From a virus, in the IMG/VR virus record IMGVR_UViG_3300047462_000727, positions 1 to 32,053 of that record: 32,053 nt of DNA. One strand, written 5' to 3'. The position numbers and the translations under genes are program-made. Shown here in pieces: positions 2,258 to 14,838 of this stretch. The stretch's first letter is position 1. Each line of letters starts with the position of its first letter. Below the pieces are notes generated by a model. That model was not told the DNA's origin. It saw only the letters and a program-made list of their open reading frames with translations, and searched no databases.

Positions 2258-5200
2258 TCACCGCTTGAACTGCTGGATTTGGATGGTGTTGGGGCCGGCG
2301 GCGGCGGTCGCCTGGTGGCTCACGCCGGTCGGCGTCGTGAAAGCGGCGACGTAGGCGTAGAGCACGAGCGTGTAGGTGTGGCTGCCCGCCGCCGGCGTGT
2401 CCTGGACGAAAGTGGCGACGCTGGACGCCGCCGATGGCGTGATGGTCAGCAGCCCGGAATTCGCGCCGTCGCGGTAGAGCAGCAGATACGAGGCGTATTG
2501 ATAGTTGCCCCCCAGCGCCAAGCCGTACTGCACCGAAATATCGATGTTGAGCGTGGTCGATCCATCGGCCGTCACCGTGATCGACGCCAGATTGGCGGTC
2601 GCGGTTTGAGCGGCAGGCACAGACTGCGTGTTTTGGGCTTCGCACGATCCGCCGGAATTGCTGGCCGATGAGCTGGATGTGATGGCGTTGGCGGCGACGT
2701 TGGAGGTCTGGACCACGCCGTTACCGAGCTGGTCCACATTAAATATGGCATTGCCCGAGGCGTCGAAAACCCAAAGCCCGTCCGCGCCGGCCCAATGGCC
2801 GAGCACGGCGCGCGTGACCCCCGACGCGTCGTTATGCGCGAAATACGGCCCGTAGGTCAGGCTTCCGCTCGTAAACAGGCCGCCATACATCACGGCGGTC
2901 GCCCCCGTTCCGCTGCTCGCCGTGTATTGATAGCCCTGGAAGAAATTCGCGGTGATCTTGTCGCCGGTGATCGTCCCGCCGGCGATATTCGCGCCGGTGA
3001 TGGTGAGCGCGGCGATGTTCGACCCGGTGATGGTCGAGCCCGCGATGTTCGTTCCGGTAATGCCGCCGGTCGCGATCTGCGCGGCCTCGATCGTGCCGGC
3101 CTCGATGTTGCTCGCGGTGATCGTCCCGGCCGCGATGTTGCCGCCGGTGATGGTGTTGGCCGCGATGTCGCCGCCGGTGATGGTGTTGGCCGCGATCTGG
3201 TAGGTCGTGATCGTTCCCGCCGCGATTTGCGTGCTGGTGATCGTCCCCGCGACGATGTTCGCGGCGGTGATGGTCGCGGCGGCGATATTCGTGCCCGTGA
3301 TCGTCGCGCCGGCGATTTGCGTTCCGGTGATGGTTCCGGCCAGGATGTTGGCGGCCGTGATCGTGTCGGCCGCGATGTTCGAACCGGTGATGGTCGACGC
3401 GGCGATCTGGGTTCCGGTGATCGTTCCGGCCTCGATATTGGCGGCCTGGATTGTACCGGCGGCGATGTTCGAACCGGTGATCGTGCTGGCCGCGATCTCG
3501 GTCGCGGTGATCGTCCCGGCCAGGATGTTGGCCCCGGTGATGGTGTTGGCGGCGATATTCCCGCCCGTGATCGTGTTGGCCGCGATCTGGTTCGTGGTGA
3601 CCGCGCCGTCCTGGATCAGCGTCGTGCCGACCATGGATTGGAGGTTATATCCGGCGGTGAGCCAGTAACCCGACTCCCCGCCGGTGGGCGTGGAGACGTC
3701 GCACTGGACCCGAAGATAGGCGGCGTTGGCCGCCGTCGTGAACGTAAATTGCGAGATGCCGCCGCCCGTTACGCTGTACGGAGACGGAGCGACGTTCGTA
3801 ACGATTACGCCCGGCTCGGTTAGAACGGTCACGCCGTCCGCCGCATAAATAATAACGCGATTGAAGAGCGGCTGGGTGGGGTTGCCGTAGGCCCATGCCT
3901 GACAACTCAGGCTATAGGCCGTGTTGGGTGAAATCTGAATCAGGGGGCCGAGGAGGAAGATCGTCTGACCGGCCGTCATCGAACCCAGATTAAAGGTGGC
4001 GGCGTTCGTCCCACCCATATCGTTCGAGAGGTAGGTATTGCCCTGGTAGAAGATCGTGGGGGCGCCGTAGAGCGTCCAATAGGACGGATCGTTCAGATAC
4101 GGATCGGTGATCAACGACGCGCCGATCGCGAGCTTGCTGGCCACGATCGCGCCGGCGGCGATGTTGGCGCTTTCCACCGCCCCGGCCTGCAACAGCGCGG
4201 TGGAAATCGAGTTCGGCGCGATCTGGGTCGTGGTGATCTGGCCGGTGAGCTGCGCGGCCGTGAGGCTGGCGATCTGGGCGGCCGTCAATTGCCCTGTGAT
4301 CTGAGTCGCTTCGAGCGAGGCGATTTGGGAGGCGGTTAACTGGCCGGTAATCTGGGTGGCGGCCAACGAGGCGATCTGGGCGGCTGTCAATTGCCCAGTG
4401 ATCTGGGGCGCTTCCAACGAGGCGATCTGGGAGGCCGTGAGCTGCCCGGTGATCTGGGTGGCGGCCAACGAGGCGATTTGTCCGGCTGTCAGTTCGCCCG
4501 TAATGTTGACCGCTGGAAACGACGTGAGGGTCGAGACGGTCGAGACCCAGGCCGAACCGTTCCATTGGTAGAGCAGGTTCGTATCGGCGGCGAAGGCGAA
4601 CAGGCTGGTCGTATGGTTGGCCGCCGAGATCGTGGACACGGACTGAACGACGTTGAGCCCGCTGATCAGGTTCGACGCGGCGATCGAATTGGCCGCGATC
4701 TGCGCGGCGACGATCTGCCCGGTGATGTCGGACGAATCGACGCCATAGGTCGTGGCGGTCGCGGGGCCGGCGAAGGCGGAGAAATTCCCGGATGTGTCCT
4801 GGGCGCGTAGCCAGTACCAGCGTTGGTCGTTGAGGTTCAGCCCCGGCCGCACGTAATGCGTGCCGGTAATGAGGCCGATGCGCGACGCATGCGCCTCATT
4901 GGCATCGCCGCTTTCCCAGATTTCGTACCAGGCGATGTCGTTCTCGGCCGAGGCGACCCAGTCGAGCGTGATCTGGCGGTAGCCCCCGGCGGCCGAGAGG
5001 GATGTCGGGGCCGGCGGCGGCGTTGTCTTGCCGATTGTCGCGACGTTGAGGTCCTGAGCCCAGGTGGAATAGAACGGGCCGGCGCTTCTGACCGCGCGGA
5101 CCTGCACGTCATAGGCGGTGTTGGCGGGAAGCGGGCTGATCTGGAAGCTGGTGGTGTTAGGACCGCAGCGATAGCCGATCCAGGGACCCGGGCCGTCATG

Positions 5201-7306
5201 CAGGCGGTACTGCACCTCGTATTGATCGAAGAAAGGATCGGGCGAGGCGGTCCAGGCGACGACGCCGAAGGAATTCCAGGTTCCGTCCTGCTGCTGCTCG
5301 GCGCCGACCGTGAAGCTGACCGCCGAGGGCGGATAGACGAATTCGCCGGCGCCGTTTGGATTATAGGTATAGGCGGAGACGGAGGCGAGGCTTTCCTGCC
5401 CGCCGCCATAAAGGTTGAAGGACAGGAATTTTAGATAGAGGGTCTGCCCGACATAGGAGACGGGCCGCACCGGCAAGTCGACCCAGAGGATATTGTCATC
5501 GAGGCGGCAGAACTCAGTCCCGGCGGCGTGCGCCGCGATGGCGGAGCCGTAAACGCCGCGGCGGAGCGTGGTCAGGGCATAGAGATTGCCGCCGGTCAGG
5601 ACTGCGGTTTCATAGGCCATCAGCTCGCCATCGACATAGCACAGCGTGCGGAATGCGTTCGCATCCGCCAGCGTGCCGGAGAGAAGCACGCCGCCGGATT
5701 CGGACAGATCGACCGACAGTGTGTCGATGGTGTCGGGATCGGGCCCGGCGGGGAGATTGGCGCGGAGCAAGCCCTGACGAGCGGGGCCGACGATGCGGCC
5801 CATACGTTGATAGGTCGAGCCGTCCAGCGACAGCCACACGTCGCAGCCGCCCCAGTTCGCGCCGCCGGACGCGCCGACCAGGATTTGCGGCGCGGCGATG
5901 GAATTCGCCGCGAGCATCGCGGGTGGAGGCTCGAAGATGAGCGGCGCGTTCACCGGGCCCGGCGGAGCGTTGTAATTGGCGAGGTAGGGCGAGCCCGATT
6001 GGTAGCTGTAGAGCGGGGCGGAGCCGGAACCGTGCAGGTAATCCTCGGCGACGACGGCCAGATTGCCGGTATCGTCCTCCTCGATCGACACGATGCGGCA
6101 GAGCTGTCTGGCGAAGCCGAGATTGGCGTCGGTGATCTCGATCAGATCCATCGGATCGAGCAGGCAATAGCGCCAGCCGAGCGTGAAGCTGTATTGGTTA
6201 CGGACGGCCTGCCGCTGGAGCTGCAAGGTGGCCGACATCGTGGCGGCGGCGAGATCGCAGAACCAGTGCGATTGCGACGGCGTGTCGGTGCGCAGGCCGT
6301 AGGTTTCGATCGCGGCCTGATCCTTGGCCTCGACGATTTCGATGTTGTACTGGTTAGAGCGGTTCAGCCATTCGAGCTTGACCGAGTTCATCCGGTCGCT
6401 GGGCCGGGCGCGGCTGACCTGAACCGGGTCGCCATTGGCGCCGCCATCCAGGAAATCGTCGTCGGTCAGGCTGAACAGCGCCTCGGTCGGCGCGGTATAG
6501 GTCGCGCCGTTGGCGGCGAGGTTCACGTCGCCATAAGGCACGATGGTGAGCGCGGCGCCGGACCAGACGAACTCGGCGTTGCAGTCCTGGACGATCTGGT
6601 TGACCTGGGACGCGGCGTCCTGCTGGGTGTCGAACAGGGGCGAGACAACCATGCCGGCGGCGCGGCAGTAATTCGAGAACACCGACAGATCGCCGAGCCG
6701 GGCCGGCGGGAAACCGATGCCATAGCGCGGGTTGGTCAGGACATCGACGACGATGTCCCTGGGGTCGGCGTCGGGCAGGCCCGATATCGCGTTCGGGAAG
6801 AGGCCCGTGACCTCATAGGACAAATTCGGCAACTGGGCCGACGTCCCGAGGTCATAGGCGGCGGCGTAGACGTAACCCGTGCCGGCGTAGGACAGGTTCT
6901 GGCCGGCGAAATTGGTGGTGAGGTAACCCCACGCGCCCTGCTCCAGGCCGCCGGCGGTGAAGGACAGGTTGGAGGCGCCGAACGCTGTCTCGGCCTTGGA
7001 CGACCAGACATTGGAGACGCCGCCCAGCGTTCCCTCCGCGAGGGCGAAGATGAAGGACGCTTTATAGGTCGTGCTGTTCGAGCTGGACCCGCTCTTGCCG
7101 CCGGAACCGCCGCCGCCCTTGCCGCCGCCCGACCCGCCGGAACTGGGCGGGATCGACTGGAAGCCGCCATACCAGATGAGGTTGCCGGTCAGCCGCGTCT
7201 GGCCATAGACCACGGGCACGACCGAGCCATAGATCGAGGTTTGTATGGTGACGCCGGACGCGACCGTCTCGGTCGACGCCTGAGTCTTGCCGCCGAACAG
7301 GGACAT
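2258..7306 (-). CDS. Tail-tip / host-specificity protein with FnIII domains and two repeat arrays
   Basis: A 1682-residue protein starting at 7306 after AAAAGGAG. The N-terminus (SIYGSVVPVVYGQTRLTGN, then a Gly/Ser-rich loop at about 52-82) and the following DVLTNPRYGIGFPPARLGDL region are typical of gpJ/GTA-megatron-type tail-tip proteins that form the baseplate hub and bind the host receptor. Two fibronectin-III-like domains lie at about 655-758 and 759-855. A 16-residue repeat (QITGQLTASQIASLEA type) spans about 933-1032. A 10-residue repeat (TITGSNIAAG type) spans about 1232-1452 and probably forms a fibrous shaft. The C-terminal 200 residues form a distinct, probably receptor-proximal domain. 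It follows the NlpC/P60 gene by about 40 bp, as in GTAs. The repeats could change length by recombination. Confidence 0.9.
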   Translation of the reverse strand: MSLFGGKTQASTETVASGVTIQTSIYGSVVPVVYGQTRLTGNLIWYGGFQSIPPSSGGSGGGKGGGGSGGKSGSSSNSTTYKASFIFALAEGTLGGVSNVWSSKAETAFGASNLSFTAGGLEQGAWGYLTTNFAGQNLSYAGTGYVYAAAYDLGTSAQLPNLSYEVTGLFPNAISGLPDADPRDIVVDVLTNPRYGIGFPPARLGDLSVFSNYCRAAGMVVSPLFDTQQDAASQVNQIVQDCNAEFVWSGAALTIVPYGDVNLAANGATYTAPTEALFSLTDDDFLDGGANGDPVQVSRARPSDRMNSVKLEWLNRSNQYNIEIVEAKDQAAIETYGLRTDTPSQSHWFCDLAAATMSATLQLQRQAVRNQYSFTLGWRYCLLDPMDLIEITDANLGFARQLCRIVSIEEDDTGNLAVVAEDYLHGSGSAPLYSYQSGSPYLANYNAPPGPVNAPLIFEPPPAMLAANSIAAPQILVGASGGANWGGCDVWLSLDGSTYQRMGRIVGPARQGLLRANLPAGPDPDTIDTLSVDLSESGGVLLSGTLADANAFRTLCYVDGELMAYETAVLTGGNLYALTTLRRGVYGSAIAAHAAGTEFCRLDDNILWVDLPVRPVSYVGQTLYLKFLSFNLYGGGQESLASVSAYTYNPNGAGEFVYPPSAVSFTVGAEQQQDGTWNSFGVVAWTASPDPFFDQYEVQYRLHDGPGPWIGYRCGPNTTSFQISPLPANTAYDVQVRAVRSAGPFYSTWAQDLNVATIGKTTPPPAPTSLSAAGGYRQITLDWVASAENDIAWYEIWESGDANEAHASRIGLITGTHYVRPGLNLNDQRWYWLRAQDTSGNFSAFAGPATATTYGVDSSDITGQIVAAQIAANSIAASNLISGLNVVQSVSTISAANHTTSLFAFAADTNLLYQWNGSAWVSTVSTLTSFPAVNITGELTAGQIASLAATQITGQLTASQIASLEAPQITGQLTAAQIASLAATQITGQLTASQIASLEATQITGQLTAAQIASLTAAQLTGQITTTQIAPNSISTALLQAGAVESANIAAGAIVASKLAIGASLITDPYLNDPSYWTLYGAPTIFYQGNTYLSNDMGGTNAATFNLGSMTAGQTIFLLGPLIQISPNTAYSLSCQAWAYGNPTQPLFNRVIIYAADGVTVLTEPGVIVTNVAPSPYSVTGGGISQFTFTTAANAAYLRVQCDVSTPTGGESGYWLTAGYNLQSMVGTTLIQDGAVTTNQIAANTITGGNIAANTITGANILAGTITATEIAASTITGSNIAAGTIQAANIEAGTITGTQIAASTITGSNIAADTITAANILAGTITGTQIAGATITGTNIAAATITAANIVAGTITSTQIAAGTITTYQIAANTITGGDIAANTITGGNIAAGTITASNIEAGTIEAAQIATGGITGTNIAGSTITGSNIAALTITGANIAGGTITGDKITANFFQGYQYTASSGTGATAVMYGGLFTSGSLTYGPYFAHNDASGVTRAVLGHWAGADGLWVFDASGNAIFNVDQLGNGVVQTSNVAANAITSSSSASNSGGSCEAQNTQSVPAAQTATANLASITVTADGSTTLNIDISVQYGLALGGNYQYASYLLLYRDGANSGLLTITPSAASSVATFVQDTPAAGSHTYTLVLYAYVAAFTTPTGVSHQATAAAGPNTIQIQQFKR
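2950..3610 (-). repeat. In-gene 30-bp (10-residue) repeat array in the tail-tip gene
   Basis: More than 20 tandem degenerate 30-bp units encode TITGxxIAAx-type decapeptides, corresponding to about residues 1232-1452 of the tail-tip protein. The period is in frame throughout, and variation falls mainly at the two residues after TITG. It would make a regular beta-solenoid or fibre shaft. On the plus strand it mimics a regularly spaced array, but it is coding. Confidence 0.9.
4210..4505 (-). repeat. In-gene 48-bp (16-residue) repeat array in the tail-tip gene
   Basis: About six 48-bp units encode 16-residue repeats of the form QITGQLTAAQIASLAA, alternating TAAQ/TASQ and SLAA/SLEA. This alternation suggests duplication of a two-unit block. 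The array corresponds to about residues 933-1032 of the tail-tip protein. It is distinct in period from the decapeptide array closer to the C-terminus. Confidence 0.85.
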
Positions 7307-9875: not shown

Positions 9876-10478
9876 TTACGGCCAGTTGTTCAAAGTGATG
9901 AAGTCCAGCTTTTTCTGTTCCCAGAGGCGGTTCATGAATTTGGAGAAATCGTACTGGTCGGCCAGGAAGCGGCAGGGCCAGTAATAGGTGAAATCGGCGG
10001 TGACCGCGGCGCCGGCCGGCGGGGCGGAGAACAGGGTGACGGTTCCGCCCTGGGCGTTCACCGAGAAGGCGGAGCCGACGGACACGCCGTTGACGTAGAT
10101 GGCGGAGACCGCGTTGGGCGCGAGGATGGGTTCGACATAGCCGCCGAAACTCCGGATGAGCTGAAACGCGGTTTGGCCGGCGGCGGCCTCGCCCAGGGAT
10201 TGGCCGGTGACGGCGTTATCGTCAGGATCGTCGAACAGGAAGGAATCGTAGGCGCCCTGGCGGGCGAGCACGAAGGCGACCAGGGCGCGGAATTCATCGT
10301 TGGCGTCGTCGCGCAGGAAATTGAACGAGAGCTGATATTGCCGGCGCGGATAGGTCCAAAGGGCGGCGCGGTTTTCCTTGCCGGTGACGGAGGTCTGGAT
10401 CAGCGTTCGGCCGGCGACCGGGGTCCACACCACGGGGTATTCGAGGCCGGCCAAGCTTGGGAAAATCTCCTGGCTCAT
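9876..10478 (-). CDS. DUF2460 distal tail protein (GTA g12-like)
   Basis: A 200-residue protein starting at 10478, where the ATG overlaps the tape-measure stop (ATGA) and GAAGG precedes it. The long in-frame extension upstream is antisense-like and out of family. Family features include SQEIFPSLAGLEYPVVWTP near the start, the NRAALWTYPRRQYQLSFNFL segment, FRALVAFVLARQGAYDSFLF and the conserved end FITLNNWP. DUF2460 proteins form the distal tail ring that joins the tube to the tail hub in GTAs and related siphophages. It is directly followed by the DUF2163 hub gene. Confidence 0.9.
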   Translation of the reverse strand: MSQEIFPSLAGLEYPVVWTPVAGRTLIQTSVTGKENRAALWTYPRRQYQLSFNFLRDDANDEFRALVAFVLARQGAYDSFLFDDPDDNAVTGQSLGEAAAGQTAFQLIRSFGGYVEPILAPNAVSAIYVNGVSVGSAFSVNAQGGTVTLFSAPPAGAAVTADFTYYWPCRFLADQYDFSKFMNRLWEQKKLDFITLNNWP

Positions 10479-11632
10479 GAGAAGGCGCCTTCTCGATGGG
10501 CCTGACGGAGCGCGGACACGACCATGGTTTTCACCTGATTGGCCTGAACCCCGGCGCCGAAGCTGGCGTTGCTGAAATCCGCATGGATATTCGTGGCTCC
10601 GCCGCCCCCGCCGCCGGCCAGGCTGGCGCGGAGCGGATCGGCGATGCCGGCGGGCAGCACCATTTCGCGGGCGTGAAGCTGGGTCACCGGGTTGAGGCCG
10701 GCGGGAATGTCGAAACCGCCGGCGGCGGAGAACACGTCGAACGCCATCACGGCGGCGAAGGCCCCGGCGGCGGCGACCGGGGCCAGAACCGGGCCGACGA
10801 TGGGGATGTCTGCGGTGGCGGCATAGGTTGAGGCGGCGGCCTTGTTCGCGTCGCCGAACACGGACGCGGACCCGGCCGTGGCGTCCGCGGCCTTGCCCGC
10901 GGCGTCGCCCGCCTGTTTGGCGGCGAGGCGCGCCGCCTCCCCCGACTGGGTGGCGCCGGTCATGGTGAGTTCGGACGCGATCCAATCCGTGGCGCGCTTC
11001 ACCGCCATGTTGGTGAAATCGGAGATGACGGATTCGCCGAGTTTGGTCACGGCCTGACGCAGCGTTTCGTTGCCATCGATGATGCCGGTCAGCGAGGATT
11101 GGAAGGCGTTGCCGATGGGGGCGATGATGGATTTCCAGTCCTGCTCGGACTCCGTGATCGATTTCTGATCGAGCTGACGCAGCTTCGCGTAATGCCGTGT
11201 TTCCAGCGCGTCGAGCTGAGCCTGGAGCTTGGTTTGGGTGGCGAGGGTGACGTCCGCGGCATCGAACTGGGCCTGGAGTTCGGCCTGGAGGGCGTCGAAA
11301 CGGGCGTTCTCGACGCGGATTTCCTCGGCGATGGCGTCATCCGCCGAGATCTGGTGCAGCGCCTTCAGCCGTTCGACCTGCGACACCTCCGACGCGTAGT
11401 AATCTTCCTGCGCCTTGCGCTGGGTATTCGCCGACGCCGCGCCGGGATCGTTCAGCGCGGTATTGAAATCGATGAGCGCCGGTTTGGCGGCGAGGGCGGC
11501 GTCGCGGATGGTTTGGAAATAGTTCTGAATGACATCGGTGGTGGAGGCGATTTGCTGAAGCGAGCCCGAGAGGCCGGCCTCCAGCTCGTCATTCGCGACG
11601 GTGAAGCCGATATCGATGGTGTTGTCGGCCAT
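10475..11632 (-). CDS. Tape measure protein (short)
   Basis: A 385-residue protein with GGAGG before the ATG at 11632. The N-terminus (DNTIDIGFTVANDELEAGLS) and long Ala/Gln-rich helical stretches (about 85-175, ALQAELQAQFDAADVTLATQ type) fit a tail-length-measuring coiled coil. A hydrophobic segment lies at about residues 275-305 (PIVGPVLAPVAAAGAFAAVM). The Gly-rich C-terminal AGGGGGGATNIHADFS and final AREMVLPAGIADPLR are typical of phage tape-measure ends. It is short for a siphovirus tape measure, implying a short tail or a size more like GTA particles. It is located after the chaperone and before DUF2460, as expected. Confidence 0.85.
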   Translation of the reverse strand: MADNTIDIGFTVANDELEAGLSGSLQQIASTTDVIQNYFQTIRDAALAAKPALIDFNTALNDPGAASANTQRKAQEDYYASEVSQVERLKALHQISADDAIAEEIRVENARFDALQAELQAQFDAADVTLATQTKLQAQLDALETRHYAKLRQLDQKSITESEQDWKSIIAPIGNAFQSSLTGIIDGNETLRQAVTKLGESVISDFTNMAVKRATDWIASELTMTGATQSGEAARLAAKQAGDAAGKAADATAGSASVFGDANKAAASTYAATADIPIVGPVLAPVAAAGAFAAVMAFDVFSAAGGFDIPAGLNPVTQLHAREMVLPAGIADPLRASLAGGGGGGATNIHADFSNASFGAGVQANQVKTMVVSALRQAHREGAFS

Positions 11633-11728: not shown

Positions 11729-12409
11729 TCAGCTAACCACTTTGAAATGGGACCAGTTGTAGTCCATCATTTCCACGAGTTCCTGGCGGAGGAAACGCGG
11801 ATTGGAATCGAGTTTAGACAGGCAGACTTCGGCTTCCGAAGCTAAGGTTCCATAATATTGCCGGCCTTTTTGGTCGGCATATTTGAGGGCGTTTTCAAGT
11901 AAATCCCGCGCATCTTCGTATTTCTGCAAATACACAGCGCATTGCGCCAAGTAAAAACTCGTCCACGGCACCGGATGTCGTGGATATTCAGCAAAAATCC
12001 GTTCGATCGTGCCGGCGGCGACCATTTTGGCGAGATCGACCTTGGCGATGGCCCCATATATGGCGGCGGCGACCGTCTCCGGGCCGCCGTCTAGCGGAAT
12101 GACGCCCTTAATGCTGTGCCCTGGAAACGGCACGCCGAAATCATAAGGGTCCGTAAGCATCGAGCCGTAGTGCAGAGAAACGCCGGCCCAGGTGAAATAG
12201 GGCGGATGGAACGATAAACTCAGATTCGGCACGATCGGCCCATGATCCGCAAAGCAGAGATTGACCCACCATGGGCAGTCCGGCGGATTTGGAAGATCGT
12301 ATCGCCGCGCCGCGCAGCCGGGCAGCATACCGGCTAAAACAATCGTCGCCTGATCGCAAATCGCGAGAGCCGCACGCTCCGCATCGCGGTCAATGTGTTC
12401 CGGGTTCAT
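11729..12409 (-). CDS. Candidate immunity protein for the PD-(D/E)XK-like toxin
   Basis: A 226-residue cytosolic protein with no signal or membrane segment. The N-terminal half is rich in aromatic residues and prolines (PPDCPWWVNLCFADHG). The C-terminal part has a TPR-like helical pair (FYLAQCAVYLQKYEDARDLL then ENALKYADQKGR). Its ATG overlaps the stop of the toxin-like gene by 4 bp (ATGA), so the two are co-translated. The base composition is visibly more AT-rich than the structural genes around it, suggesting separate acquisition. Close coupling to a gene with a nuclease-like end is the pattern of an effector and its cognate immunity protein. No known immunity family is recognised; the role is inferred from position. 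Confidence 0.55.
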   Translation of the reverse strand: MNPEHIDRDAERAALAICDQATIVLAGMLPGCAARRYDLPNPPDCPWWVNLCFADHGPIVPNLSLSFHPPYFTWAGVSLHYGSMLTDPYDFGVPFPGHSIKGVIPLDGGPETVAAAIYGAIAKVDLAKMVAAGTIERIFAEYPRHPVPWTSFYLAQCAVYLQKYEDARDLLENALKYADQKGRQYYGTLASEAEVCLSKLDSNPRFLRQELVEMMDYNWSHFKVVS

Positions 12410-13263
12410 GGCTTATCGTACACCTGAAAATACTGGTAAACGGGGTTCCCCGGCACATTGATCAAGGTCCGTCTCTTCTGTTCGACAATTTCCGCATCGC
12501 TCAAGTCAAGGGCGGGGCGGCCGCTCTTCAACTCAAAAATAATGAGTGGATGACCTTCCGGACCGTAGACCAAATCCGGTGCCGAGGATCCCGGCGGGCG
12601 TGTTCCACCTCGCTGTAACTTCCCATTGAGAAATACGGGTTGAGCAGAGAAACCCGGAAAATCTCCGGTCTTGACGAGTAGGGTTAGCGCCAAATCCAAT
12701 TCCGTTCCGTAATCGGGCATGCCGGGCCTGAAGCCCAACCTTCCTACCGCCGTGGTCGCGATATAGACCATTAACAGAGCTTGCTTATGCGCCGCATCTA
12801 TTTCAGGGCCATACTTTCCATACTCATAGGTCGAATTAACCGCGACATTGAGGGTTTGCCCGACGTGCTGAAATCCAGGGTCGCGCGGTGAAGAACGCCC
12901 AGATTGGGAGCCACTCGTGAATTGTCCACCTCCTGGCCCCGGTGGCCTGTGATAGGGGTTGTATTTGACGACCGTCACTGGCGGGTCGATTTGCAGGAAG
13001 AGCAGCAGGAGGGACGCGCGGACGGCGTCGCCCTTGTCGAGGGCGCGGGCTAACGCCTCGATCCCGTTCTGGCGGTCAGGCAAACCGATCAGGCCGCCCG
13101 CGCAGGTGGCCTTGCTTTTGGCAAGGGTTGCTTGCGCTGGCTTGACGCGACCGTATGGGTCAGCCTCCGTTAGAGGCATGCCATCGGCCAGGTAGGCATG
13201 GCCGCCCCGCAGGTACGGCCAGCCCTGGGCGTTCGCGCCCTCACCCAGGCGGTATGTCGGCAT
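12406..13263 (-). CDS. Polymorphic-toxin-like protein, PD-(D/E)XK nuclease-like C-terminus
   Basis: A 285-residue protein, start at 13263 with AAGGAAG upstream. Residues 1-60 form an N-terminal module (MPTYRLGEGANAQGWPYLRG). Residues 68-96 contain ALARALDKGDAVRA, shared with the toxin-like gene at 18747-19295. A linker KYNPYHRPPGPGGGQFTSG (100-118) follows. The C-terminal domain has P229-D230 followed by IIFELKSG (E244, K246), the PD...ExK arrangement of PD-(D/E)XK nucleases, then DLSDAEIVEQKRR. It probably acts as a DNA- or RNA-cleaving effector carried or expressed by the phage. It sits between the tail chaperone and the tape measure, where no such gene is needed for assembly. Nuclease activity is an inference from a short motif. 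Confidence 0.6.
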   Translation of the reverse strand: MPTYRLGEGANAQGWPYLRGGHAYLADGMPLTEADPYGRVKPAQATLAKSKATCAGGLIGLPDRQNGIEALARALDKGDAVRASLLLLFLQIDPPVTVVKYNPYHRPPGPGGGQFTSGSQSGRSSPRDPGFQHVGQTLNVAVNSTYEYGKYGPEIDAAHKQALLMVYIATTAVGRLGFRPGMPDYGTELDLALTLLVKTGDFPGFSAQPVFLNGKLQRGGTRPPGSSAPDLVYGPEGHPLIIFELKSGRPALDLSDAEIVEQKRRTLINVPGNPVYQYFQVYDKP

Positions 13264-13324
13264 GGGTTCTTCCTTTTTTGGGAATTTTTGGGCGCTATCC
13301 AACCGGGCGAGCCTTCCGCGGCGT

Positions 13325-13375: not shown

Positions 13376-13615
13376 TCACGATCGCTTTCCAAACAGCGGC
13401 AACAAATCGCCCAGATCGGCGCGTTTTTCGCGGCGAGGGGTTAGCAGAGCGGCTAGCAGGAGGTGAGTCGGTGGGTGGTCGCGCCAGTAGGTGGCGAGGG
13501 CGTCGTATTGGGGGAGCGTCAGGTCGTCGATTTGGGGCCAGGTCCAGCCGCAGGAGGTGGCGATCAGGGCGTAGATTTCGCCCCAATTCCAGCCGCGGCT
13601 TAGGCTTCCCCCGGG
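13376..13615 (-). CDS. Frameshift extension of the tail assembly chaperone (gpT-like part)
   Basis: The -1 frame relative to the chaperone gene stays open from the slippery site to a TGA at 13376-13378. It has no usable ATG or GTG start before its end. It encodes 77 residues after the shift (GSLSRGWNWGEIYALIATSC, then WTWPQIDDLTLPQYDALATY and WRDHPPTHLLLAALL), clearly protein-like, with Trp-rich codons and a compact fold. Joined to the 97 codons before the shift it gives a 174-residue fusion, the equivalent of lambda gpGT, made at a low ratio to help the tape measure recruit tail tube subunits. Its position directly before the tape-measure region fits. Confidence 0.8.
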   Translation of the reverse strand, partial: PGGSLSRGWNWGEIYALIATSCGWTWPQIDDLTLPQYDALATYWRDHPPTHLLLAALLTPRREKRADLGDLLPLFGKRS

Positions 13616-13899
13616 GCGGGCGCCTTTCGGGGCTGGAGGCCGGAGAGGATGGCGATGGCGGAGATGGCGGCCTTAAGCTCGGGCACCGTGGGGGACAGAT
13701 CGTCGAATTGCTGCCGGGTGAAGGCGGGGTCGCCGGTTTGGATGGCGGCGGTCACGATATCGCCCTGGGCGTCGAGTTTGGCCTCCGTATCGATGCCCAG
13801 CGTGAGGAAGAGCGGGAGCACGCGTTTCAGGTCGCGGAATTTGAGGGGCGCGATGGGATAATCGGCGCCGGATAGGGTTATGGTTTGGGGGGCTGACAT
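13600..13899 (-). CDS. Tail assembly chaperone, short form (gpG-like; GTA g10-like)
   Basis: A 99-residue protein. The start SAPQTITLSGADYPIAPLKF then RDLKRVLPLFLTLG is typical of tail assembly chaperones of the GTA g10 / phage TAC type: a short beta hairpin followed by helices. The C-terminus ends RKAPAPGEA. Codons 96-97 (CCG GGG) form part of a CCCGGGG slippery heptamer that gives the longer fusion. It follows the tail tube gene after a repeat-filled gap of about 200 bp. It would bind the tape measure and control tube polymerisation, and is not itself part of the virion in characterised phages. Confidence 0.85.
   Translation of the reverse strand: MSAPQTITLSGADYPIAPLKFRDLKRVLPLFLTLGIDTEAKLDAQGDIVTAAIQTGDPAFTRQQFDDLSPTVPELKAAISAIAILSGLQPRKAPAPGEA
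13609..13615 (-). other. Programmed -1 frameshift slippery site CCCGGGG
   Basis: Read in the chaperone frame the sequence is C CCG GGG, a perfect X-XXY-YYZ heptamer, four codons before the stop TAA. After slippage the reading continues through GGA AGC CTA into the open -1 frame. The location at the end of the first chaperone ORF is where lambda-like tail phages place their shift. Confidence 0.75.
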
Positions 13900-13912
13900 G
13901 GGGGTCCTTTTC

Positions 13913-14103: not shown

Positions 14104-14838
14104 CTATTCGCTGAGCCAGACGTTGCCGATGTTGCCGGCGGCGTCGGCTGCTGCCTGGAAGTCGAATTCGGGGATCATGAAATCTTCGTTTTTGAAGGCG
14201 AGGGAGAGTTTGGGGGAGATGACGGAGTTGAGTTCCAGGTTGAACAACTTGCCCTGGTATTGCTCGTTCAGGATCAGCTTGAAGGTGGGTTGCGAGCCCA
14301 TCAGCGCGTTGGTGAGGGCGAGGCTGGTCCCGCTCGCGGTCGTATACGTATAGGTGAACAGGAGGGCGGCGTTGGCGTCACCGGCGCTGAAGCTGTAGAC
14401 GCCGGCGGCGACGGAATACTGGCCGGTGGCGGGGGCGCTGGCGACGGGGGTGAGCAGCACGCCCGTGCCGGCGTAGGCGACGCCGAGATCGGCGACGAAT
14501 GTGGCGTGGTTGGCGATGGTGACGGTGTAGGCCGCCGCGCCGGGGACGGTTCCGGCCTCGCTGAGCTGCGTCAGGGTGTTGCCGGTGGAGAGGGTCTGGC
14601 CGAAGAAGATGTTGTTGAAATTGGCGGCGGTGATGCGCGCGGCCTTGGCCTTGCCGGTGATCTTGAGCGCGCCACGGGCGAGCGCGGCGGGGGCCTGAAA
14701 CTGACCCGTCAGCTCCTTGATCGTGAAGCTGAGATCGAGCTGGACATCCTGGAGCGTGCCGAATTGGGCCGGGGTTGCGATGGCGGTGTCGGTGCGGAGC
14801 GCGACCAGCGCGCCGATGCCGAAGGCGTATTGGGTCAT
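14104..14838 (-). CDS. Major tail tube protein
   Basis: A 244-residue protein starting at 14838 (GAAGG-type site upstream). The sequence is beta-rich and Ala/Thr-rich, with GTLQDVQLDLSFTIKELTG, FQAPAALARGALKITGKAK and an N-terminal YAFGIGALVALRTDTAI. This pattern fits tail tube proteins of siphophages. A loop of about 60 residues (around 120-175) shows an Ig-like run (AAGVYSFSAGDANAALLFTY). Its position immediately after the tail completion genes and before the chaperone supports the call strongly. It would form the hexameric rings of a non-contractile tail; no sheath gene is present. Confidence 0.85.
   Translation of the reverse strand: MTQYAFGIGALVALRTDTAIATPAQFGTLQDVQLDLSFTIKELTGQFQAPAALARGALKITGKAKAARITAANFNNIFFGQTLSTGNTLTQLSEAGTVPGAAAYTVTIANHATFVADLGVAYAGTGVLLTPVASAPATGQYSVAAGVYSFSAGDANAALLFTYTYTTASGTSLALTNALMGSQPTFKLILNEQYQGKLFNLELNSVISPKLSLAFKNEDFMIPEFDFQAAADAAGNIGNVWLSE

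Follow-up and report, generated by a model that had tools for sequence, protein, structure and literature searches.

The putative tail assembly chaperone locus occupies positions 13376–13899 of the window, the whole 32,053-nucleotide stretch of viral DNA analysed here. These coordinates agree with those of an earlier note on the same DNA, which left the strand unstated; it is the minus strand, the coding direction for genes in this part of the window. The locus and its neighbours comprise the following features:

14104–14838, minus strand: probable major tail (tube) protein gene, immediately upstream (PHROG 8234 and gene order)
13905–13909, minus strand: Shine–Dalgarno-like AAGGA, 5 nt before the ATG at 13899 (read from the sequence)
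13600–13899, minus strand: putative 0-frame tail assembly chaperone (G-like), 99 aa, ATG at 13899 and TAA at 13602–13600 (from the ORF list)
13609–13615, minus strand: C CCG GGG, the slip site proposed in the earlier note, present and in the X XXY YYZ phase
13606–13612, minus strand: G GGG GAA (GGGGGAA), in phase, the most likely slip site judging from conservation in relatives
13376–13609, minus strand: −1 frame extension (T-like), 77 sense codons and then TGA at 13378–13376, predicted to be accessible only by frameshifting
13536–13605, minus strand: possible stimulatory RNA stem (tentative), ~5 nt 3′ of the slip site
10475–11632, minus strand: downstream gene whose product resembles tape measure proteins (best match to the PHROG tape measure families 1.3e-14)

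The 0-frame ORF ends with GCC CCG GGG GAA GCC TAA, in which CCCGGGG and GGGGGAA overlap, both in the X XXY YYZ phase. The earlier note counted four codons from CCCGGGG to the end of the ORF; the heptamer is in fact followed by two sense codons (GAA GCC), with TAA as the third. A −1 shift at either heptamer would produce a fusion of the same length, 174 aa. As the note described, the −1 frame beyond the heptamer is open for 77 codons up to its TGA, and the sole ATG, GTG or TTG codons in it are two TTGs (13405 and 13402) near its end. This openness proves nothing by itself, since the 63% G+C content of the window makes stop-free frames cheap; the opposite strand carries a spurious one of 169 aa at the same place. 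CCCGGGG occurs in 4 copies in the window (15.6 expected by chance), and GGGGGAA at 13612–13606 is the only coding-strand copy in the whole window (2 copies on both strands, 7.2 expected). Because both the open frame and CCCGGGG come cheaply by chance, the case for frameshifting depends on conservation in relatives.

Relatives were searched for with each half of the product and with alignments of each half. For the −1 domain in viral contigs, the best 80 of 145 relatives were kept, and the search with the −1 domain alignment also found the domain in five alphaproteobacterial MAGs, two of them labelled Rhodospirillales. Removal of near-duplicates left 71 loci, and the omission of L096, which is cut off before the slip site, brought the set to 70 non-redundant loci, viral and prophage, in which the region is intact. 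A tblastn search of annotated phages with the window's own fusion gave no match, and scanning genomes with the 0-frame alignment turned up no relative. Only when a −1 domain of greater divergence served as query were matches obtained, to Pseudomonas phage KT1, with the slip region CCG GGG GAA, and a Herbaspirillum seropedicae plasmid, a phage-plasmid (L146, NZ_CP034394.1), with CGG GGG GAA; distant relatives in beta- and gammaproteobacterial elements thereby retain GGGGGAA. In the gene table of the Herbaspirillum plasmid, which is incomplete, an entry exists for the 0-frame half but none for the −1 domain, as anticipated in the earlier note for start-codon-based gene finders. The −1 chaperone domain of this plasmid lies at 5001–5243, where the PLSDB table has no gene, and an ORF in another frame (5191–5412) is annotated over its end.

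All 70 intact loci have the domain in the −1 register downstream of the 0-frame ORF. Within 150 nt after the 0-frame stop, the −1 frame contains stops in 0 of 66 loci, and the other two frames contain them in 62 and 36. Over a 43-codon core of the −1 frame, pN/pS was 0.09, 0.18 and 0.27 for pairs at 90–98, 80–90 and 70–80% identity, respectively; the same core read in the other two frames gave 1.7 and 2.2. The mean numbers of changes on the tree at codon positions 1, 2 and 3 were 8.5, 6.5 and 15.2, which is the pattern of a coding frame. These substitution patterns show a conserved −1 frame subject to purifying selection, with a conserved core that reads W-x3-Y-x-LIAT-x-CG...ID-x2-TL...YW-x3-PP-x-H. 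These ~70 relatives strongly support what was first proposed from the window alone, programmed −1 frameshifting in a tail assembly chaperone like lambda gpG/gpGT. On comparative grounds, the frameshift is with near certainty genuine, and it belongs to a familiar type.

The C-terminus of the −1 domain (13376–13450 in the window, and its counterparts in relatives) varies by clade between a PK-REK-DLADLF type and a YKGDGNRTNDLSDLM type, and the type roughly tracks adjacency of an effector-like cassette described below.

GGGGGAA is found in phase in 68 of the 70 intact non-redundant loci. The first 27 sequences all read NNG GGG GAA in frame, and among them CCCGGGG stands at that place only in the window, L002, L006 and L028. 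Across the larger set, the codon 5′ of GGG is CCG, CTG, TCG, ATG, GTG, ACG, TTG or GCG, so that the residue before the GGG codon may be P, L, S, M, V, T or A while its wobble base is always G. As the amino acid is free and the wobble base fixed, selection appears to act on the nucleotides. We counted third-position changes in a protein alignment not selected for the slip site: the three slip codons showed 0, 0 and 2 changes versus an average of 15.5 across 100 columns. The first slip codon changed 20 times at its position 1, and 20 third-position changes were counted at the invariant glycine of an upstream SGL motif (alignment column 208), taken for comparison. A zero-change count from a second set was discarded because that set had been chosen for carrying GGGGGAA. 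GGG makes up 17% of the Gly codons in these genes, and GAA 29% of the Glu codons. The two exceptions are L101, with GGGGGAG, and the AT-rich L005, which has A AAA AAA in the corresponding place and role and is too divergent to be aligned reliably there; L008 and L009 both carry GGGGGAA.

These counts also bear on where the ribosome would slip. A genuine −1 frameshift at C CCG GGG (13615–13609), the site named in the earlier note, by tandem slippage of tRNA-Pro and tRNA-Gly would change nothing in product length, and in the window and the three relatives nearest to it this heptamer has a perfect, correctly phased X XXY YYZ pattern; GGGGGAA is not a canonical X XXY YYZ heptamer. However, none of the other relatives has C CCG GGG here; their preceding codon is often one of the seven alternatives to CCG given above, and GGGGGAA, 3 nt over and nearly invariant, persists in its absence. 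The abundance of CCCGGGG expected by chance in the window also counts against it, as does a preference for A or U at Y in XXXYYYZ heptamers in the form quoted in PMC10885494. We regard slippage at C CCG GGG as improbable; the slip site is most likely G GGG GAA (13612–13606). The alignment of homologues suggested in the earlier note thus upholds conservation of the −1 frame but not of the CCCGGGG heptamer.

Many distant relatives (L095, L098, L100, L106–L111, L122–L124, L134–L145 and others) carry an in-phase C CCG GGG where both frames overlap, 27 nt 3′ of GGGGGAA. This downstream copy may be a chance product of a Pro/Gly-rich linker or a second slip site.

The downstream frame could instead be a separate gene with an internal start, perhaps at a rare codon: ATC and CTG codons are present near the start of the conserved domain, and re-initiation coupled to a nearby stop codon is common. 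In the 68 GGGGGAA loci, however, the −1 frame from the slip site up to the conserved domain contains 0 ATG, GTG or TTG codons versus 26.5 expected from shuffles, and 0 stops versus 16.0 expected. Loci differ in how far the 0-frame stop lies beyond the slip site (about 10 to 154 nt), so there is no fixed geometry for coupled re-initiation, and an internal start would leave the invariant GGGGGAA unexplained. We consider a separate gene very unlikely. The earlier note held that the −1 frame has no start codon of its own, which is true of everything before the conserved domain, the two TTGs near the end of the window's −1 frame being the only candidates; it also paired loss of the heptamer with gain of a start codon in close relatives as evidence against frameshifting. 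Loss of CCCGGGG is observed, and gain of a start codon is not.

Slippage of RNA polymerase on the G run, yielding the fusion from altered transcripts, would give similar protein products, and the sequence does offer a homopolymer. At only five G, however, that homopolymer is short for transcriptional slippage, which usually needs longer runs of A or T. Re-pairing of tRNAs better accounts for the AA that invariably follows the G run and for the constancy of the codon phase, making polymerase slippage a still more doubtful explanation than an internal start. A sequencing or assembly indel splitting one ordinary gene, for which the position of the frame break in a CCCCGGGGG run might speak, has a negligible probability and is refuted by recurrence of the same frame relation in ~70 non-redundant contigs from many metagenomes, several MAGs, the complete Herbaspirillum plasmid and a phage genome, with a 0-frame stop that varies in position between clades and no relative fused in frame among the ~70 loci and the distant records.

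The RNA stem predicted downstream of the slip site in the window has a minimum free energy of −31.4 kcal/mol and a z-score of −2.85. Across the family, the mean folding z-score relative to shuffles is about −1.2 downstream of the slip site versus +0.1 upstream. No covariation supporting the downstream stem was found in the family; therefore, despite the strong stem in the window, we do not claim a conserved RNA structure, and a stimulatory role of the stem is only possible. As a candidate stimulator of another sort, an internal Shine–Dalgarno-like 4-mer precedes the slip site in 32 of 68 loci, with controls spanning 1 to 28 of 68.

The 0-frame half corresponds to PHROG 7947, matched by 32 of 44 aligned homologues (best 9e-19) and weakly by the window copy, and the −1 half to PHROG 8018, matched by 13 of 13 homologues. 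Both families are of unknown function. The PHROG database lists them as two unrelated unnamed families, whereas according to the reading frames compared here they are two halves of one frameshifted product. Neither half matched a Pfam family at the cut-off, and the PDB gave no match by sequence or by fold. In its predicted fold (pLDDT 78), the 0-frame protein combines a beta-hairpin with helices that come after it. Among the top fold matches of this short form in BFVD are many proteins annotated as tail assembly chaperones, from Gordonia, Halobacterium and other phages, at a probability of 0.99–1.00 with E above 0.001. The predicted model of the −1 domain gave no fold match.

The chaperone gene is located between tail-tube-like and tape measure-like genes. 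The upstream gene (14104–14838) belongs to PHROG 8234 (9e-58), a family of unknown function, and gene order makes it the probable major tail (tube) protein gene. Two genes precede the tape measure gene in the window, and in many relatives the tape measure gene is directly adjacent to the chaperone.

The two genes between chaperone and tape measure in the window form a cassette (11729–13302, minus strand) that is also seen in L009 (5539–6432), L015 (5569–6423), L018 (5543–6397), L020 (6213–7055) and L029 (6198–7127). The N-terminal part of its first protein is conserved, reading MRxYRLAEGxNxxGxPFLxEGHAYLADGTPLT ... KYNPFHKPPGPGGGQFTSG; the C-terminus varies and is PD...ExK nuclease-like ('PDLVYGP...IFELKTGR') in most cases and an unrelated 'IIHTHPTW...GSGDF' in L020. 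The second gene encodes 142 aa in L020 versus about 226–247 elsewhere. The first protein had no match in Pfam. The cassette resembles a polymorphic effector–immunity gene pair set within the phage tail module.

Very probably, then, the locus encodes a chaperone pair of the lambda gpG/gpGT type, with a short form and a −1 fusion made through G GGG GAA. Most ribosomes would translate from 13899 to 13600 and halt at TAA, giving the 99-aa short form. By analogy with known systems, we infer slippage at an efficiency at which a minority of ribosomes would move one base back on G GGG GAA (13612–13606). Following the re-pairing scheme laid out for GGGGGAA in PMC10885494, the peptidyl-tRNA (Gly) would move from GGG to the overlapping GGG with its pairing intact, and tRNA-Glu would shift from GAA to GGA, its middle base pair becoming G-U. 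The slipped ribosomes would continue in the −1 frame to the TGA at 13378–13376 and complete the 174-aa fusion, with a predicted junction of ...APAPGE-SLSRGW..., where the junction residue may be E or G. If the parallel with lambda extends to function, coating the tape measure protein would fall to the short domain and recruitment of the major tail protein to the extension, and neither chaperone form would be present in the virion.

The arrangement resembles lambda in several respects. In the lambda work of Xu et al. (2004), as cited in PMC5009743, the gene likewise lies between those for the major tail protein and the tape measure, and lambda is described there as making a short form and a rare −1 fusion with a start-less extension, from a slip site given as G GGA AAG, unlike the G GGG GAA found here. 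The lambda chaperones show no recognisable sequence similarity to the present proteins, and the V-G-T-H order of lambda differs from the window in the two extra genes before the tape measure gene; intervening genes at this position are known elsewhere too (PMC3483164). G/GT-type frameshifting is widespread in long-tailed phages (PMC5009743) and is reportedly the norm in phages of Rhodobacter capsulatus (PMC8601537). The same heptamer in the same kind of gene is reported for all of the approximately one thousand 'fivetwo' sites of actinobacteriophage training data (PMC10885494) and was proposed as the tail chaperone slip site of corynephage phi16 (PMC5506516). The present phages are instead proteobacterial, mostly alphaproteobacterial, and the likeness lies in the motif and the kind of gene. 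Among phages of Alphaproteobacteria, gp93/gp94 of phiCbK-type Caulobacter phages also form a −1 frameshift chaperone ahead of the tape measure (PMC3556154), but slip on AAAAAAC, or GGGAAAC in Colossus, rather than on GGGGGAA.

Since both lambda-type G/GT frameshifting and the GGGGGAA motif have already been described, the frameshift reported here is of a known type, and the picture of phage tail assembly is unchanged. The new elements are a corrected slip site together with its distribution across proteobacterial phages, a connection between two phage protein families so far unnamed, which gain a name and a joint function, and a case of slip-site replacement in a low-GC relative. The −1 extension is also an example of what start-codon-based annotation omits. 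The set of ~70 loci serves as a natural experiment on what GGGGGAA needs: the preceding codon is free and the seven bases are fixed, with GGGGGAG tolerated in one relative. We lean, at a little better than even odds, towards a broader reading in which a wide group of proteobacterial phages would use G GGG GAA as the sole conserved signal, acting mainly through GGG/GGG re-pairing in the P site and without a conserved RNA structure, and low-GC relatives would have swapped it for an A-run. If this is true, the slip chemistry would be exchangeable with base composition while the two-protein arrangement is retained.
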